Notes under the pieces: generated by a model
The model's input: only the letters and a program-made list of their open reading frames with translations
What the model was told of the DNA's origin: nothing
Database searches by the model: none
In this document: in pieces, positions 18 through 29,657 of the stretch
Layout: every line of letters begins with the position of its first letter
Position numbering within the stretch: the stretch's first letter is position 1
Translations under genes and position numbers: made by a program
Assembly (NCBI GenBank): GCA_022729705.1
Contig: DZAX01000024.1
Coordinates: forward strand, 1-32,650
DNA from: Helicobacter cetorum
Lineage (GTDB): Bacteria; Campylobacterota; Campylobacteria; Campylobacterales; UBA6016
Direction of reading: 5' to 3'
Length of the DNA: 32,650 nucleotides

Positions 18-44
18 AATACAAAGGGTGTCAGGTGTTCTTTT
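18..44 (+). repeat. REP-like short repeat, copy 1
   Basis: The 18-base string AATACAAAGGGTGTCAGG recurs exactly at 522-539, and the following bases (TGTTCTTTT here, CACTCTTTT there) also align. The GGTGTCAGGCAC-type core resembles repeats that in other bacteria accompany REP-associated Y1 transposases; that link is from memory and no transposase gene is visible here. The two copies bracket the small coiled-coil gene at 166-510. Confidence 0.5.
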
Positions 45-2158: not shown

Positions 2159-3360
2159 TACTCGTTTCTTAGGACGGTTAGAGCGTCCACCTCTGATGCT
2201 TTTTTTGCCGGATAGTATGAGGATAAAAACACTATAACAAGCGATCCAATCGTGATAAGTACAAAATCAACGGCGCTAAGCTCCAAAGGAAGCTTTGAGC
2301 TACCGTAAACATCGGCGGGCAGGCTGATAATATCAAAATTGGAGAGCAGATACAAAGACAATAGCGCAAGAGCTACACCCACAACAATACCGCTTCCGCC
2401 GATAATTGCTCCAAGTCTAAAAAATATCGCTTTTATATCCCGTCTATCCGCCCCAAGGGAGAGTAACAATGCAATCTCTTTTCGCCTACTCATGACGGTC
2501 ATCAAAAGAGAGCTTACGATATTAAGAGAAGCCACAAGAATAATCAGCATAAGCACTACAAACAGCGCCCTTTTTTCCAGCGCAAGCGCCGCAAAAAAGT
2601 TGCCGTTTTGTTGCCACCAGCCCACAAGGGCGTATTCGTCGGGGAGTTTTGCGGCTATTGTTTTTATATCTTTTAGCGGCTCTTTGGCGTAGATATGCAC
2701 GCCGTCATATATGCCCTCTTCTTTTGCCAGCACAGCGGCTAAGTCTTTTGCGTTTACATACACATACCCCTTGTCATACGCCAAAAGCCCTGATGAAAAG
2801 CTCTTATCGACAGAAAAACGCTTCATCATGGGGGTGATACCAAGCCCTTGCGGCTCGCCCTCGGCAAATATAATAGTCAGCTTATCGCCTTTTAACAAAT
2901 CAAACTCATCTTTTAGCTTTTCGCCTATAAGAGCCTCAAAAGGCGCAAGCCCACCACTTTTAAGTGCGTCCGCAACAACGGAGTTTATCGGTTTTTCAAG
3001 AGTGCTTTCCACTCCAAAAACCACCACGCCCTCCATATTGTCGCCTTTTTTCGCTATTGCGCTAGCTCTCAAAAATGGGCTAAATTTGAACTCAGGGTAG
3101 TTTTTTTGTAGTTCGTTTACAAACTCCTTTGAGACGTCATGACTCTGTTTTGAATAGAGTGTTATGGGATAGTTCATCGTAAAAAGCTTTTTTTCAAACT
3201 CTTTGTCAAAGCCGTTCATAATAGCCATAGCGACAATAAGCACAAAAACGCCAAGCCCCACGCCCACAAAGGCGAGAGCGGCGGTAATAGAAATAAAAGG
3301 CTGAGAGGGGTCAAACCTCAAATATTTGGAGACGATAAAGCGAATAAGTTTTTTATTCAT
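2158..3360 (-). CDS. LolC/LolE-type lipoprotein-releasing ABC permease
   Basis: This inner-membrane permease of the LolCDE class extracts outer-membrane lipoproteins for hand-over to LolA. The start chosen is the ATG at 3360 (MNKKLIRFIVSKYLRF), which gives 400 residues, the usual length. The frame is open further upstream to 3423, but that part translates a dispersed repeat and is not conserved. There is one N-terminal membrane helix (about 25-50), a periplasmic domain (about 50-255), and three C-terminal helices. The last three carry the FtsX/MacB signature SSLLMTVMSRRKEIALLLSLGA and end with the typical SYYPAKKASEVDALTVLRNE. No second permease or LolD ATPase gene is adjacent. With lolA just beyond secA and lgt at 16962, the window holds several lipoprotein-pathway genes. 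Confidence 0.88.
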   Translation of the reverse strand: MNKKLIRFIVSKYLRFDPSQPFISITAALAFVGVGLGVFVLIVAMAIMNGFDKEFEKKLFTMNYPITLYSKQSHDVSKEFVNELQKNYPEFKFSPFLRASAIAKKGDNMEGVVVFGVESTLEKPINSVVADALKSGGLAPFEALIGEKLKDEFDLLKGDKLTIIFAEGEPQGLGITPMMKRFSVDKSFSSGLLAYDKGYVYVNAKDLAAVLAKEEGIYDGVHIYAKEPLKDIKTIAAKLPDEYALVGWWQQNGNFFAALALEKRALFVVLMLIILVASLNIVSSLLMTVMSRRKEIALLLSLGADRRDIKAIFFRLGAIIGGSGIVVGVALALLSLYLLSNFDIISLPADVYGSSKLPLELSAVDFVLITIGSLVIVFLSSYYPAKKASEVDALTVLRNE

Positions 3361-3370
3361 TAGAATTAAA

Positions 3371-3450
3371 CGCCAATGCGGGCAAAGCCCGCCTTGGCGG
3401 CAAGGACATAAATGTCCCTGCACCCCCTAAAGCTACCGACTTTGCCGGAG
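3371..3450 (+). repeat. Modular hairpin repeat, copy A (forward)
   Basis: Module 1 is a hairpin at 3371-3399: 13-bp arms with one mismatch around the loop AAA, with core GGGCAAAGCCCG. Module 2 is the hairpin GGACATAAATGTCC at 3404-3417. A degenerate module 3 (AGCTACCGACTTTGCCGGAG) follows at about 3430-3449. Modules 1 and 2 align base for base with copies at 18420 and 26787 (reversed). A further hairpin, TTGCGG-AAAG-CCGCAA at 3471-3486, fills the rest of the secA to permease gap. There is no U-run after any stem, so this does not look like a terminator. Confidence 0.8.
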
Positions 3451-3557
3451 AGTGAGAGAATAGTATCAAATTGCGGAAAGCCGCAAGAGCCGTCTGCTGA
3501 AGACATAATCTCAGAGCTTTGCTTCTTCAGGATTTGAGAATTAATCAAATGTTCCAA

Positions 3558-15688: not shown

Positions 15689-16965
15689 AAATGGAACTCA
15701 TAGACTTAATACAAACGGGCGAGGATTGTGTAAAATGCGGTAAATGTATCCCCGTCTGCACAATACATGCGATAAGTCCGGATGAGACTACAAGTCCGAG
15801 GGGATTTTTGGATCTGCTTGCGGCGCATAAACGAGGAGAACTGCCCCTAAATAAAGACGTAAAACGAATATTTGAGAGCTGTTTTTTGTGTACAAACTGT
15901 GTAGACGTTTGTCCGTCTCGTATTCCGACCGATACGGCGATAGAAGAGGTGAGGGCGGAGATAGCCAAAGAGTTTGGTATTACTTGGTATAAGCGCGCAT
16001 TTTTTTGGCTTCTTCGCAGTCGTACAATTATGGATTTGATGGCAAAAATGGGGTATGTGTTTAAAAGTTGCGTATTTGCCGACAAAAAAGAGAAAAGCTC
16101 TATGCTTGCTAGATTTTGGTTGCCGATAGTAAAAAGCGGTAGACTCTTACCCTCTGTCTCCAAAACCAGCTTTTTAAACAGCCATGAAGAGCGGATAAGA
16201 GTGGATAATCCGGATAAAAGAGTAGCCGTTTTTATAGGGTGTATGGCAAACTACTCATACACAAATATAGGCGATTCACTCGTTAGGACGCTTGAAAAAC
16301 TAAACGTAGATATTTTGATACCAAAAAAACAGCTCTGTTGCGGCGCCCCCGCTTATTTTACTGGAGATTTGGACACGGTAAGGTGGCTTATCAAAAAAAA
16401 TATTGAGCACTTTGAGGATTTTATAGACGATGTGGACGCTATTGTGGTTCCTGAGGCGACATGTTCTTCGATGATGGTGCACGATTGGGAAGTTGCCCTA
16501 AAAAACGAACCAGAGTGGGCGAAAAGAGCTAAAAAAATAACGGCAAAAGTATGCCTCGCCACAAAATGGTTATATGAAAACACTCACCTAAAAGAGTTGC
16601 TAGCTAAAGAGGGCAAGCAGATAGACTTAGCGGTCACATATCACGACCCGTGTCACGCGCGTAAAACGCAAGGCGTATGGAAAGAGCCAAGAGCGCTGTT
16701 ATCTCAAAACTATACAATGATTGAGATGGAAAACCCAAACAGATGTTGCGGATTTGGCGGCGTGACGATACAAACGGAGAGATTTGAGCTAGCTCAAAAA
16801 GCCGGCGCTCCAAAGGCGCAAATGATAGCCGATACAAAAGCAAATATTGTAAGCGCCGAGTGCTCTGCCTGTAGAATGCAGCTTACAAACGCCATGTATG
16901 AGGGTGGGGTGGATACGCTTTTTAAAAATCCGATAGAGCTTATAGACGAGGCGCTAAAAAAATGA
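15685..16965 (+). CDS. Orphan GlcF/GlpC-like Fe-S oxidoreductase subunit (CCG domains)
   Basis: The 426-residue protein resembles the iron-sulfur subunits of glycolate oxidase (GlcF), anaerobic glycerol-3-phosphate dehydrogenase (GlpC) and heterodisulfide reductase. Two 4Fe-4S motifs are visible: CVKCGKCIPVC (Cys 15, 18, 21, 25) and CFLCTNCVDVCPS (Cys 66, 69, 72, 76). Two CCG cysteine-rich domains follow. The first has LCCGAPAYF but ends CSSM instead of CxxC; the second has RCCGFGG and CSACRM and is complete. No flavin subunit is encoded nearby, so its electron donor or acceptor is unknown. It overlaps hemN upstream and lgt downstream by 4 bases each, so it is co-translated with them. Confidence 0.88.
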   Translation: MKMELIDLIQTGEDCVKCGKCIPVCTIHAISPDETTSPRGFLDLLAAHKRGELPLNKDVKRIFESCFLCTNCVDVCPSRIPTDTAIEEVRAEIAKEFGITWYKRAFFWLLRSRTIMDLMAKMGYVFKSCVFADKKEKSSMLARFWLPIVKSGRLLPSVSKTSFLNSHEERIRVDNPDKRVAVFIGCMANYSYTNIGDSLVRTLEKLNVDILIPKKQLCCGAPAYFTGDLDTVRWLIKKNIEHFEDFIDDVDAIVVPEATCSSMMVHDWEVALKNEPEWAKRAKKITAKVCLATKWLYENTHLKELLAKEGKQIDLAVTYHDPCHARKTQGVWKEPRALLSQNYTMIEMENPNRCCGFGGVTIQTERFELAQKAGAPKAQMIADTKANIVSAECSACRMQLTNAMYEGGVDTLFKNPIELIDEALKK

Positions 16966-17774
16966 TTGAGATTTGGCAACACATATATTCGTCGTTTGAC
17001 CCTGTAGCGTTTAGACTTTTTGGTCTCTCTGTGCATTGGTATGGGCTTATGTATGTTTTGGCTCTTCTCTCGGTATATGTTTTTGCGAGATATTTGACCG
17101 AAAAAGACGGCTACCCTTATACAAAACAAGATATAGACAGCTATTTTTTTTGGGCTGAGATAGGCGTAATAATCGGAGCTAGAGTCGGGTATGTACTCTT
17201 TTACGACCCTCACGCTCTTTGGTATGTCATGCATCCATGGCAGATTTTCAATCCCTTTATGGACGGTACGTTTGTTGGTATAAGAGGCTTTAGTTACCAC
17301 GGCGGATTAATCGGATTTTTATTAGCCTCTTATCTTTGGTGCAGAAAATATAAAAAAAGCTTTTGGCTCCTTATGGACTTAACAGCTGTTAGTGCCGGAC
17401 TTGGCTACACTTTTGGCAGAATCGGCAATTTTTTAAATCAAGAGCTTGTGGGGCGGGCTACCGATAGTCCTCTTGGTATATGGGTTGGAGCGACGCTTAG
17501 GCATCCTTCGCAGCTTTATGAGGCGTTTTTTGAGGGTGTGGTTGTTTTTATTATTCTTTATGCGCTAAGGAGTAAAAAAACATTTGATGGGCAACTGGCT
17601 ATGGCTTATGGGGTTCTTTATGGGCTTTTGCGCGCTTTTTGCGAGTTTTTTCGCGAGCCGGATCCGCAAATCGGGTATCTGCTTGGCTCATGGCTTACGA
17701 TGGGGATGCTTCTATCTTTTGTTACCGCTTTGTTGTCCGCCGTTATATATCTGTATATTAGACCGAGGCGTTAA
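16962..17774 (+). CDS. lgt: Prolipoprotein diacylglyceryl transferase
   Basis: Lgt transfers diacylglycerol from phosphatidylglycerol to the lipobox cysteine of prolipoproteins in the inner membrane. The 270 residues form about seven membrane helices. Conserved features are the N-terminal VHWYGLMYVLA, YHGGLIGF with the essential histidine at about 113, FGRIGNFLNQE (Arg 153, Asn 156), and HPSQLYEAFFEG. LLRAFCEFFREPDPQIG is near the end. The start overlaps the Fe-S gene stop (ATGA), and the next gene starts directly after its TAA. Confidence 0.96.
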   Translation: MIEIWQHIYSSFDPVAFRLFGLSVHWYGLMYVLALLSVYVFARYLTEKDGYPYTKQDIDSYFFWAEIGVIIGARVGYVLFYDPHALWYVMHPWQIFNPFMDGTFVGIRGFSYHGGLIGFLLASYLWCRKYKKSFWLLMDLTAVSAGLGYTFGRIGNFLNQELVGRATDSPLGIWVGATLRHPSQLYEAFFEGVVVFIILYALRSKKTFDGQLAMAYGVLYGLLRAFCEFFREPDPQIGYLLGSWLTMGMLLSFVTALLSAVIYLYIRPRR

Positions 17775-18389
17775 ATGAACGAAAACATAGATAGATTTGA
17801 CAAAGCCGCAAAAGAGTGGGATAGCAAGCAAACCAGAATAACGATGGCGACCAAAATAACATCGCAAATTATCAAAAATATTCCGCTTAAAAACGAGCAT
17901 ACAGTTATGGATTTTGGTTGCGGGACGGGGCTTGTGGGGCTAAGTATTGCGCCGCTTGTAAAAAAACTTATAGGCGTAGATATATCAAGCGCTATGATTG
18001 AGGCATTTAAAACCAAAGCGATAGAGCAGGGGTATTGCAACATTGAATCAAAGTGTGTGGACGAACACACAAAACTTGATTTTTGCGATTTGGACGCTAT
18101 TGTCAGCGCAATGGCTCTTCATCATATCAAAGAGCCTCATCTTGCGTTTAAAATTTTCGCAGACTCGTTAAAAAGCGGTGGCTACTTGGGTATTGCGGAT
18201 TTAGATAAAGAGGATGGAAGTTTTCATGAAAATAACAACGGCGTTTACCATTTTGGATTTAGCGCAGACGAGTTTGAAGAGTTTTTTGTAAACGCGGGCT
18301 TTGAAAAACCGCAAATAACGGTTGCCCATACGATAGACAAAGAGCTAAAAAGCTATGATGTACTGTTTTGTTTTGCAAGGAAGATTTAA
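17775..18389 (+). CDS. Class I SAM-dependent methyltransferase
   Basis: The 204-residue protein has a Rossmann-fold methyltransferase layout. Motif I is VMDFGCGTGLVGLS (about 44-57), motif II is LIGVDISSAMIEAF (about 65-78), and motif IV is LDAIVSAMALHHI (about 107-119). The HHI segment and the following FADSLKSGGYLGIADLDKED are typical of the UbiE/Tam-like Methyltransf_11/25 families. The substrate is unknown. It starts immediately after the lgt stop (TAA then ATG), so it belongs to the hemN-lgt transcription unit. Confidence 0.88.
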   Translation: MNENIDRFDKAAKEWDSKQTRITMATKITSQIIKNIPLKNEHTVMDFGCGTGLVGLSIAPLVKKLIGVDISSAMIEAFKTKAIEQGYCNIESKCVDEHTKLDFCDLDAIVSAMALHHIKEPHLAFKIFADSLKSGGYLGIADLDKEDGSFHENNNGVYHFGFSADEFEEFFVNAGFEKPQITVAHTIDKELKSYDVLFCFARKI

Positions 18390-18390
18390 T

Positions 18391-18678
18391 ATGAAATTTA
18401 TACTATCTGATGTTACGCACCAACACGAGCAAAGCCCGTATTGGCGGCAGGGACATAAATGTCCCTTGCAACCCCAACCGGGTCCCATCGCCAACCGGCG
18501 ATGGGTGGCTCTAGCTACCCGCTCATGCGGGAGAGTAGTAGTTTTTGCATACATAAAGCATTTAAGGTCGGTTATACTTATAGCTTTAGCGGCAGTTTTT
18601 TTTACCGGATGTATCGGCAAGATAGTCTCCGCCCCTTTTAAGATAGTAGGCGAAGTGATTGATACGGTGTTGCCTTAG
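18391..18678 (+). CDS. Small lipoprotein gene interrupted near its start by a hairpin repeat
   Basis: The last 40 or so codons give a signal peptide with a lipobox, SVILIALAAVFFTGC, then a short tail IGKIVSAPFKIVGEVIDTVLP. This is like the tiny entericidin/DUF6726-type lipoproteins (family by resemblance). The ATG at 18391 has a strong AAGGAAG site, but about 10 codons later the DNA becomes modular hairpin repeat copy B for about 40 codons, in frame. The signal peptide follows only after that. As translated, a 55-residue polar, Pro/Arg-rich extension precedes the membrane segment, which would be unusual for a lipoprotein. Either the repeat has entered the gene and damaged export, or translation starts inside (for example the GTG at about 18505, within the repeat). 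The gene converges on the GT2 gene with a 4-base overlap. Confidence 0.6.
   Translation: MKFILSDVTHQHEQSPYWRQGHKCPLQPQPGPIANRRWVALATRSCGRVVVFAYIKHLRSVILIALAAVFFTGCIGKIVSAPFKIVGEVIDTVLP
18420..18531 (+). repeat. Modular hairpin repeat, copy B (forward, fullest copy)
   Basis: Four stem-loops follow one another. Module 1 is at 18420-18444 (core GAGCAAAGCCCG). Module 2 is at 18450-18465 (GGGACAT / ATGTCCC). A perfect 9-bp stem, CCCATCGCC-AACC-GGCGATGGG, is at 18484-18505. Module 3, CCCGC-TCAT-GCGGG, is at 18518-18531. It aligns with copy A over modules 1 and 2 and over the AGCTACC...GGAGAGT module 3 flank. It lies inside an open reading frame, unlike the other copies. Confidence 0.82.
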
Positions 18679-19460: not shown

Positions 19461-20219
19461 TTATGGCTTTTGATATACCCTTACATAATCAACTTCAAAT
19501 TGATCCGGCAGTATCTCGCCCTCTACGCCGCCGCCCCATTCGCCTATTTCGGCGCTAAGAATGAGATATTGATTTGTATTGGAGATTACCCCCGTCTTTG
19601 TGTGTCTCAAAACGCCGTCTACATAAAACTCATAAACATCCTTTGTCCACAACAATCCAAAAGTGCGCCAGCCGTTATCCTCAATAGCCGGATAAGTCAA
19701 GCTAAAACCGTTTTTTTTGTGGTATGCGGCATAACCATCCCAGTGCGTGGTAAAATGCACTTTTGAGGATATAATTTTAACATATTCAAAAATATCTATC
19801 TCCATTCCAGAGTTTTGAGGATCGCCAATCACTTTGCCATAATTTTGACTCATCAACCAAAATGCTGATTGTGGACCTTTGATTTTTGGCAGTTTTGCTC
19901 TAATTTCAAAGTATCCAAATTTCGGCTCAAATTTGCCCATCGTCCCTATCATCCCCGAGCAGATCTTATTGCCGTCAATATGAATAATATTTTTTAGAGT
20001 TCCGTTGCTTACCACGATACTATCGGCGGTTGTATACCCCAGCTTTCTCTTTCCAAGATAGCGATGACCCCATTTGCTCTCATCAAGAGCTATACCGTCA
20101 AATTCATCACTCCATACAAGCTCATATCCGAGCGGAGGAGTTTGAGCGCTTAGCGCACTTGTCTGCAGTGTCGCGTATGTAAACAACAAAAATAAAATCA
20201 CAATTTTAAACATGGGCAT
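19461..20219 (-). CDS. Secreted glycoside hydrolase family 16 (beta-glucanase type)
   Basis: The 252-residue protein has a Sec signal peptide (about 1-25, ending SALSA) and a GH16 jelly-roll domain. The catalytic signature ExDxxE is EIDIFE (Glu 140 nucleophile, Asp 142, Glu 145 acid/base). LVWSDEFDG at the front, FGYFEIRAKLPK before the active site, and FEVDYVRVYQ at the end are characteristic. Members cleave beta-1,3 or beta-1,4 glucans or galactans. In polysaccharide clusters (ExoK-like) they trim the exported polymer, and the neighbouring GT2, OPX and Wzc-like genes favour that role. AAAGG lies five bases before the ATG at 20219. Confidence 0.93.
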   Translation of the reverse strand: MPMFKIVILFLLFTYATLQTSALSAQTPPLGYELVWSDEFDGIALDESKWGHRYLGKRKLGYTTADSIVVSNGTLKNIIHIDGNKICSGMIGTMGKFEPKFGYFEIRAKLPKIKGPQSAFWLMSQNYGKVIGDPQNSGMEIDIFEYVKIISSKVHFTTHWDGYAAYHKKNGFSLTYPAIEDNGWRTFGLLWTKDVYEFYVDGVLRHTKTGVISNTNQYLILSAEIGEWGGGVEGEILPDQFEVDYVRVYQKP

Positions 20220-20322
20220 AGAGACCTTTCATATTGGATATGTTGTAGGAGCTTTGCGTGCGTAAGGTCAGCTATGTAACTATATTACAAACGTTATTAA
20301 TTGTATAGCTAACTCTGAAATA

Positions 20323-26677: not shown

Positions 26678-26786
26678 AGGTGCGATATGGCTTACATCGC
26701 CTTTGTGTGCGAAATCTTCAGCATACTCGCAATACTCAAATGATAGTCTATATCCTCCCACTCAATCCCTGTTTCACAACATATCA

Positions 26787-26834
26787 GGGACATTTATGCC
26801 TTTGCCGTCAATACGGGCTTTGCTTGTATTGACG
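26787..26834 (-). repeat. Modular hairpin repeat, copy C (reverse)
   Basis: On the minus strand module 1 is a hairpin at 26834-26806 (arms CGTCAATACAAGC / GCCCGTATTGACG around AAA, two G-U pairs). Module 2, GGCATAAATGTCCC, follows at 26800-26787. It aligns with copies A and B over both modules. It lies between the end of the thiD2-like gene and the pseudopilin promoter, with 7 bp to the thiD2-like stop. Confidence 0.8.
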
Positions 26835-26841
26835 TGTAGTA

Positions 26842-27258
26842 TCAGCTGGTTTTTAAAAAAAATGATTTTTCTATATCATAAAGTCTATACCTAAGCTCTT
26901 TAAATAGCTCCGCTTCGTCTGTATTTATGATTTTTAGAGTCTCTTCGAGAGTTCTGGCCGACTCCTGCGCTCTTTTGAAGTTTGCGATAACTAAAGAGGT
27001 TATACCTCCCCTTTGTGTCTCGGTTTTTGTAGTTGGTCTTAGCGTATCTCCTACGCTGTCTCTATATCTAAGAGCTTCCAGTAAAAAGACGCTTCTAGCC
27101 TCGTGTCTTATCGCTTTTAGCTTGTAGGCTTCGTCTTTAAACTCATATACGAACCTACATATATCCTCAACAACCCTAACCCCCTCTTTGAAACGGTTAA
27201 GGTTTGCGTCAACAACTCGAAAAAGAGCGGCTGAGTCGTCGCTACTCGTCTTTTCCAC
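26842..27258 (-). CDS. thiD2: Stand-alone ThiD2-like HMP-phosphate kinase
   Basis: The protein is about 138 residues from the GTG at 27258 (TTG or ATG starts further upstream lie deeper inside the Bax-inhibitor gene). Signature segments are FRVVDANLNRFKEGVRVVEDICRFV (about 13-37), LKAIRHEAR, DSVGDTLRP and ANFKRAQESARTLEETLK, with ELRYRLYDIEK near the end. They match the small domain often fused to the N-terminus of ThiE. I know this domain as ThiD2, reported to phosphorylate HMP-phosphate but not free HMP. Databases may call it thiamine-phosphate pyrophosphorylase. GGA lies about seven bases before the chosen start, and it overlaps the preceding gene by 17 bases. Confidence 0.72.
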   Translation of the reverse strand: MEKTSSDDSAALFRVVDANLNRFKEGVRVVEDICRFVYEFKDEAYKLKAIRHEARSVFLLEALRYRDSVGDTLRPTTKTETQRGGITSLVIANFKRAQESARTLEETLKIINTDEAELFKELRYRLYDIEKSFFLKTS

Positions 27259-27973
27259 CGAAAATTCCAAGTATTTGTAACAAAGAGACAAATAGATTTA
27301 AAAAGTCAAGATACAGACTAGCCGCCGCACTAACAGGCGAATCGTATGCGCCTTTTATGATGTTTTGCGTGTCGTATAGAATAAAAAAACTAAACAGCAA
27401 GGCTCCGGCTCCGGCTAACATTAGCTGAAGTATTGGACTACCCAAAAATATATTGATAACTCCGGCGACAATCATCACGATAAGAGCGATAAAGAGCATT
27501 TTGCCCATCATCGTAAAATCTTTTTTTGTATTCATCGCAAACATTGTAAGACCACCAAAAGCCACAGAGGTCATCAAAAACGCATTTGTCACAATACCGG
27601 CACCGCTTGGAAGATTAAGGATATTGCTAAGAAGCGGGGTAAGTGTAAGACCGCTGATAAAAGTAAACGCAAAAAGCACTATAGCGTTGATACCCGGCTT
27701 ATTTCTCACAAAGTGAAGTCCAATAATAAGCGCTATTTCCAAAATAACAAGCGGCCAATAGAAGCTTTTGATAGTAGCGGCGGCTTGCATACCGGCGTAT
27801 GCTCCAGCTGTTCCCGCGACAAGAGAAGCCGCAAAATAAGAGTAGGTGGTTTTTACAAACGCATTGATGTCGCCAATGACATGTCCCACCTCTTCCTGCG
27901 AGCCAAAATCAATTCTCTCAAGCCTATTGTTCGTCTGTGAGCTTCTCACATAATCTCTATCGTAAAGCCCCAT
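27242..27973 (-). CDS. Bax inhibitor-1/YccA family membrane protein
   Basis: The 243-residue protein has seven hydrophobic segments after a 35-residue polar N-terminus. Family landmarks are VGHVIGDINAFVKTTYSYFAASL (helix 1), FTFISGLTLTPLL, LMTSVAFGGLTMFAM and the end LLFSFFILYDTQNII with SAAASLYLDFLNLFVSLLQILG, where the conserved Asp residues act as a pH or calcium sensor in characterised homologues. YccA-type members modulate FtsH; the role here is not known. AAAGGAGAG precedes the ATG. It is divergent from the AmmeMemoRadiSam pair, sharing a 163-bp intergenic region. Confidence 0.93.
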   Translation of the reverse strand: MGLYDRDYVRSSQTNNRLERIDFGSQEEVGHVIGDINAFVKTTYSYFAASLVAGTAGAYAGMQAAATIKSFYWPLVILEIALIIGLHFVRNKPGINAIVLFAFTFISGLTLTPLLSNILNLPSGAGIVTNAFLMTSVAFGGLTMFAMNTKKDFTMMGKMLFIALIVMIVAGVINIFLGSPILQLMLAGAGALLFSFFILYDTQNIIKGAYDSPVSAAASLYLDFLNLFVSLLQILGIFGGKDE

Positions 27974-29491: not shown

Positions 29492-29549
29492 TATTTTTCG
29501 CCACAACAGAGTAGTGCAATTTGCGCCTATAAAATCGCTTTCTTTCTCC

Positions 29550-29578
29550 CGCTAATACGGGCTTTGCTCGCATTAGCG
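29550..29578 (-). repeat. Modular hairpin repeat, copy D (reverse, module 1 only)
   Basis: The hairpin has 13-base arms, 29550-29562 and 29566-29578, around the three-base loop (AAA on the minus strand), core GAGCAAAGCCCG, with two G-U pairs. The outer stem is CGCTAAT / ATTAGCG, different from other copies but still paired. It lies between amrA and the phosphatase gene. Confidence 0.75.
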
Positions 29579-29657
29579 CATAACATTAATAAAGTAATTA
29601 ACGCGTCACAAAACGCTCATACAATTCAACTTATTTTATAACAGTTGGAGCAAAAAG

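Follow-up and report, generated by a model that had tools for sequence, protein, structure and literature searches.

We analysed a stretch of 32,650 nucleotides from Helicobacter cetorum (contig DZAX01000024.1, referred to below as the window), in which lgt (16962-17774) is followed by a methyltransferase gene (17775-18389, plus strand) recognised as an ORF with Pfam Methyltransf_25/11 matches and found in the same order in two congeneric genomes, G001 and G002. One base past the methyltransferase stop, an ATG at 18391 opens a frame that crosses a copy of a dispersed repeat (copy B) without a stop codon and ends at TAG 18676-18678. This ATG is preceded by a Shine-Dalgarno-like AAGGAAGA (18377-18384, plus strand) that matches GCAAGGAAAA upstream of the G001 orthologue; ribosome site, start, repeat and stop-free frame all lie as a first-pass annotation of this DNA had described them. 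The resulting lipoprotein ORF of 95 amino acids (18391-18678, plus strand) consists of MKFIL, an insert, VILIALAAVFFTGC and a DUF6726 mature part. The peptide preceding the lipobox cysteine reads ...FAYIKHLRSVILIALAAVFFTGC, and the Cys codon of the F-T-G-C lipobox (18610-18612, plus strand) encodes residue 1 of a mature lipoprotein of 22 residues. Residues 59-93 of the ORF match DUF6726 (PF20487) with an E-value of 3.7e-7 and 30.4 bits, above the curated profile cut-off of 27, which places the protein in this lipoprotein family. From the ATG at 18391 to the lipobox, the frame holds just two further ATG, GTG or TTG codons, TTG 18466 and GTG 18505, both located in or at hairpins of the repeat and lacking a well-spaced ribosome site. 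The RNA is predicted to fold strongly (-72.9 kcal/mol, z -3.7), which could hinder translation.

The first-pass annotation had proposed that a palindromic mobile element was inserted in frame here, and had suggested a comparison of the locus after lgt and the methyltransferase in close relatives. The comparison bore this out: in G001, genes for a 4Fe4S protein, Lgt and the methyltransferase are followed directly by MKIILVAILGAFLFTGCIGKIVSAPFKVAGEVIDIVLP, from a short, uninterrupted gene of 38 amino acids. When the 167 nt of the repeat and one TTATACT are removed from the window, an uninterrupted gene is restored, and the flanks joined at the duplicated TTATACT read MKFILIALAAVFFTGC..., with 76% identity to the G001 orthologue (E-value 8e-15). 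The two TTATACT copies (18398-18404 and 18572-18578, plus strand) are a candidate 7-nt target-site duplication, a length of duplication that recurs in the element family, and the right copy restores the codons of the hydrophobic region. The insert begins inside codon 5 and comprises the element (18405-18571) and the right duplication, that is, 174 nt or 58 codons; the stop-free repeat noted earlier is real, and the size of about 40 codons given for it was too small. The distance from start to cysteine is about 16-24 residues in the other DUF6726 relatives that we read and 73 in the window, counted from ATG 18391. In the mature part, 19 of 22 residues are identical to G001, with 11 codons differing synonymously and 3 by amino acid.

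The inserted copy is a long form with a full tail (18405-18571, plus strand, 167 nt), with left end CTGATGTTACGC from 18407 and right end AAGGTCGG; 2 nt separate the left duplication from CTGATG, and the terminal repeats of this copy are imperfect. From left to right on the plus strand, it contains hairpin P1 (CCAACACGAGC AAA GCCCGTATTGG, 18416-18446), which covaries strongly in the family, hairpin P2 (AGGGACATAAATGTCCCT, 18449-18466), the hairpin CCCATCGCC/GGCGATGGG of a middle module specific to the long form (18484-18505), and the hairpin CCCGCTCATGCGGG followed by AGAG (18518-18531), which is found in long and short forms. The right tail (18536-18571), common to a subset of copies, encodes ...FAYIKHLRS, a candidate substitute for the charged n-region of the signal peptide. 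Three further copies lie in the window: copy A, a short form (3360-3452, plus strand) upstream of the LolC/E start; a copy at 26770-26845 (minus strand), at whose TGA the ORF 26842-27291 (minus strand) ends exactly; and a degraded copy at 29503-29589 (minus strand). Copy A had been thought to add a false N-terminus to the LolC/E permease, a suggestion that we drop, as the natural start MNKKLIRF is downstream of copy A and the longer ORF is a mechanical extension. A second repeat (AGCGGCNAGCCGCGAGAGCCGTCTGCTGAAGACC...) is often found directly 3' of the element, in the window at about 3463-3507 and elsewhere at loci L098, L099, L106, L110, L112 and L116. A tail resembling the right end (GTAGGAGCTTTGCGTGCGTAAGGTCAG) also stands isolated, with no left half, at 20244-20280 of the window, upstream of a glycosyl hydrolase-like ORF (19461-20219).

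A profile scan of sequence stretches found at least 170 copies in the same genome (2.19 Mb), and a covariance model of the element core matched 150 of 150 scorable candidates there. Elsewhere we counted 14 copies each in G001 and G002, at least 75 in G005, at least 41 in G029 and a few in further genomes; the family is also present in other families of the order, and the covariance-model search returned no copies in 31 of 40 genomes. Copies measure about 90-170 nt and come in two forms, a long one with the middle module and a short one without it. Rfam gave no match in the window, and a literature search of incomplete coverage found no description of this element family. Some copies form tandem arrays of two or three (L097 1976-2248, L113 1982-2180, L110, L102 and L107).

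The ends of the element are clearest in G005, where copies of 110-126 nt have 12-bp terminal inverted repeats (CTGATGTTACGC on the left and GCGTAACGTCAG on the right, matching at 11 of 12 positions). In the H. cetorum genome these repeats are imperfect, and the right tail is kept by only a subset of copies, the window copy among them. The 7-nt flanks match at 7 or 6 of 7 positions in several G005 and G029 copies (for example ATAATTA/ATAATTA in G005 and TTATATA/TTATATA in one G029 copy), and in H. cetorum 9 copies have exact 7-nt flank matches, against a mean of 2.1 and a maximum of 5 in 60 permuted pairings. Many copies show no target-site duplication, and a general duplication pattern among tail-less copies was weak, with a signal confined to 7 nt and to a minority of the copies. 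The covariation of hairpin P1 was greater than in any of 500 shuffles or any slid control. Since most changes in P1 exchange one Watson-Crick pair directly for another and G-U intermediates are few, the pattern suggests that what is kept is a DNA hairpin or arm-to-arm conversion, and the same observation makes a role at the RNA level a less likely cause of the covariation.

When genes were called simply as ORFs, 157 of the 162 scorable copies fell outside them; this rule also places the window copy outside, since much of its ORF consists of the element. The five copies scored as inside appear mostly to be mechanical N-terminal extensions (one of them precedes a fabD-like gene) or tandem copies. 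Only the window copy is clearly inserted between a start codon and its protein. The first-pass annotation had also remarked that the element length is close to a multiple of three; this holds exactly for the 174-nt insert and is not a family trait: measured from the left end as far as the GGGAGAG hairpin, copies fall into all three phases. Any one forward frame is free of stops in about 8-38% of long-form copies, and none of the three is open in a majority of them. Given this spread of lengths and the low proportion of open frames, the open in-frame insertion is a rare survival rather than a built-in feature, and with 157 of 162 copies outside genes and lengths not restricted to multiples of three, the window copy is an exception within a mostly extragenic family.

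These counts bear on the likeness to Rickettsia palindromic elements (RPEs) that had been suggested for the locus. RPEs are unusually frequent in ORFs and encode a conserved peptide (PMC10969869, PMC3733652). Like them, the present family consists of dispersed, hairpin-forming elements of about 100-170 nt, and the window holds an in-frame insertion that leaves its gene open; the comparison stands for this fusion and fails for colonisation of genes as a habit, as the copies are not frequently inserted in ORFs in frame and no coding phase or peptide is conserved among them. Unlike in RPEs, the single clear case here has its extra peptide within a cleavable signal sequence. RPE-type behaviour as the cause of the insertion was rejected on the copy census and the phase spread.

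The element is closer to bacterial miniature inverted-repeat transposable elements (MITEs) such as MITEAba12 (PMC6382973), which are likewise short, non-coding and high in copy number, with terminal inverted repeats, target-site duplications and AT-rich targets. Its many dispersed, non-coding copies fall within the size range of about 50-500 bp, G005 copies carry the terminal inverted repeats given above, the target-site duplications have a fixed length of 7 nt, and mobility is seen in empty and filled purU-ilvE sites and in the lipoprotein site that is empty in G001. It differs from these MITEs in its internal hairpin modules, its long and short forms and its preference for exact stop-codon positions. 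The element has every MITE feature that we considered apart from a parent insertion sequence, candidates for which were Y1 transposase genes only; none of those examined carries the ends of the element. With RAYT-mobilised REP/BIME repeats (PMC3733652, PMC2817692) the family shares palindromes, a high copy number, mostly extragenic positions and covarying hairpin arms. REP sequences are palindromes of 20-40 nt tagged GTAG/CGTC, whereas the element is much longer, differs at its ends, and has both terminal repeats and target duplications. At the Y1/RAYT genes that we examined, the flanks hold either another repeat or no member of this family. A RAYT/IS605 origin was rejected on this ground and, judged by these genes, the element does not belong to the RAYT-linked REPs. 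The genome also contains a RAYT-like Y1 transposase gene bordered by a distinct repeat, AAAGGGTGTCAGGCACTCTTTT (window 18-44 and 522-548; also L146), which looks like a separate RAYT-linked system. At L151 (2423-4266), an IS605-like element whose tnpA is broken and whose tnpB is intact adjoins a repeat copy and has its own separate ends.

For the lipoprotein gene, we consider the following course of events probable. The 167-nt MITE-like, hairpin-rich element inserted with a 7-nt TTATACT duplication in codon 5 of the DUF6726 gene, at what is predicted to be the boundary between the n- and h-regions of a type II signal peptide. Translation from the original, coupled ATG at 18391 would then yield a preprolipoprotein with 58 extra residues before the h-region, all of them preceding the lipobox cysteine, while the h-region would regain its beginning (VIL) from the duplication and positive charges (IKHLR) would come from the right tail of the element. 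The extension lies wholly before this cysteine and the tail offers a new charged n-region, so the extension could be cut away by signal peptidase II. Export by Sec, lipidation and cleavage by LspA plausibly still take place, and the extended precursor is most likely lipidated and cut to give the same mature lipoprotein, with expression that is tolerated and perhaps lowered by the mRNA hairpins. Long signal sequences are known from autotransporters (PMC2805444). The earlier view that the insertion should destroy export or force an internal start is not compelling, given that the added residues precede the lipobox cysteine and that the in-frame TTG and GTG starts are poor. The locus exemplifies, in an organism other than Rickettsia, a palindromic mobile element within a protein gene that stays open, the empty site being seen in a relative. 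It also offers a specific explanation of why the insert is tolerated, namely that it would fall entirely in a segment removed during maturation.

The main rival to this tolerated extension is that the gene is decaying or silenced, the insertion having abolished useful expression and the frame being open through youth or chance; we regard this as rather unlikely. The DUF6726 gene was not found downstream of the methyltransferase in G002 and is patchy in the order, with any match in no more than 24 of the 100 genomes that were searched, so it may be dispensable, with a reading frame that is open by luck; the proportion of stop-free long-form copies makes an open insertion not very improbable, and strong hairpins lie near the start. 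Such decay sits poorly with 95 codons that hold no stop or frameshift, with a lipobox and mature part kept as closely to G001 as described, and with the retained ribosome site and start. The retained ribosome site also weighs against an internal start in or after the element giving a shorter signal peptide, which we hold to be quite improbable: GTG 18505, which would leave 35 residues before the cysteine, and TTG 18466 are in frame, but both are part of stems or border them and have no ribosome site at a suitable distance, and the GGAGAG that precedes ATA 18553, from which a normal-looking IKHLRSVILIALAAVFFTGC would be made, is spaced about 17 nt from a codon hardly used for initiation. The uninterrupted frame would also fit an ancient conserved N-terminal domain that involves no insertion, a reading of practically negligible probability since the sequence is a dispersed repeat of at least 170 copies and the syntenic G001 orthologue lacks the extension. 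The tolerated extension is the reading that we prefer.

The position of the other copies relative to genes may matter more than the lipoprotein insertion. For 31 of 162 copies, a long upstream ORF on the same strand ends exactly at the T[G/A]A of the left end of the element; 43 ORF ends fall in a 9-nt window at the element, against 0-2 when the anchors are shifted by 200-400 nt, and under a stricter ORF rule the figure is 27 of the 70 copies having a nearby ORF end. In all three cases compared (purU, argB and hemC) the stop of the element replaces the original one and the protein is not truncated, since the counterparts in G001 and/or G002 terminate at the same residue. Exact-stop copies are also found in G005 and G002; examples in H. 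cetorum are L092, L100, L106 and window 26842-26845. The association is compatible with targeting as well as with survivorship. It is conceivable, though we put it forward only tentatively, that the transposition machinery recognises the 3' ends of genes, inserts at the stop and supplies a replacement T[G/A]A, that the element would in this way spread almost harmlessly through dense genomes, and that the occasional misplaced copy persists where the extra peptide is removed, as may be the case here. The family suggests a way of living in gene-dense bacteria, which is to sit exactly on stop codons and bring a new one.

Between purU and ilvE, the site is empty in G001 and on contig C83 of G002, holds a short form with TTATCTT on both sides in H. 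cetorum, and holds a long form at the same stop codon on contig C16 of G002; the copies in H. cetorum and on C16 may reflect two independent insertions or one old insertion. The same junction is present on two contigs of one assembly, filled in L235 (C16) and empty in L236 (C83), and these two versions of the locus may stem from mixed strains, one of the contigs perhaps coming from another strain, or from a recent insertion.
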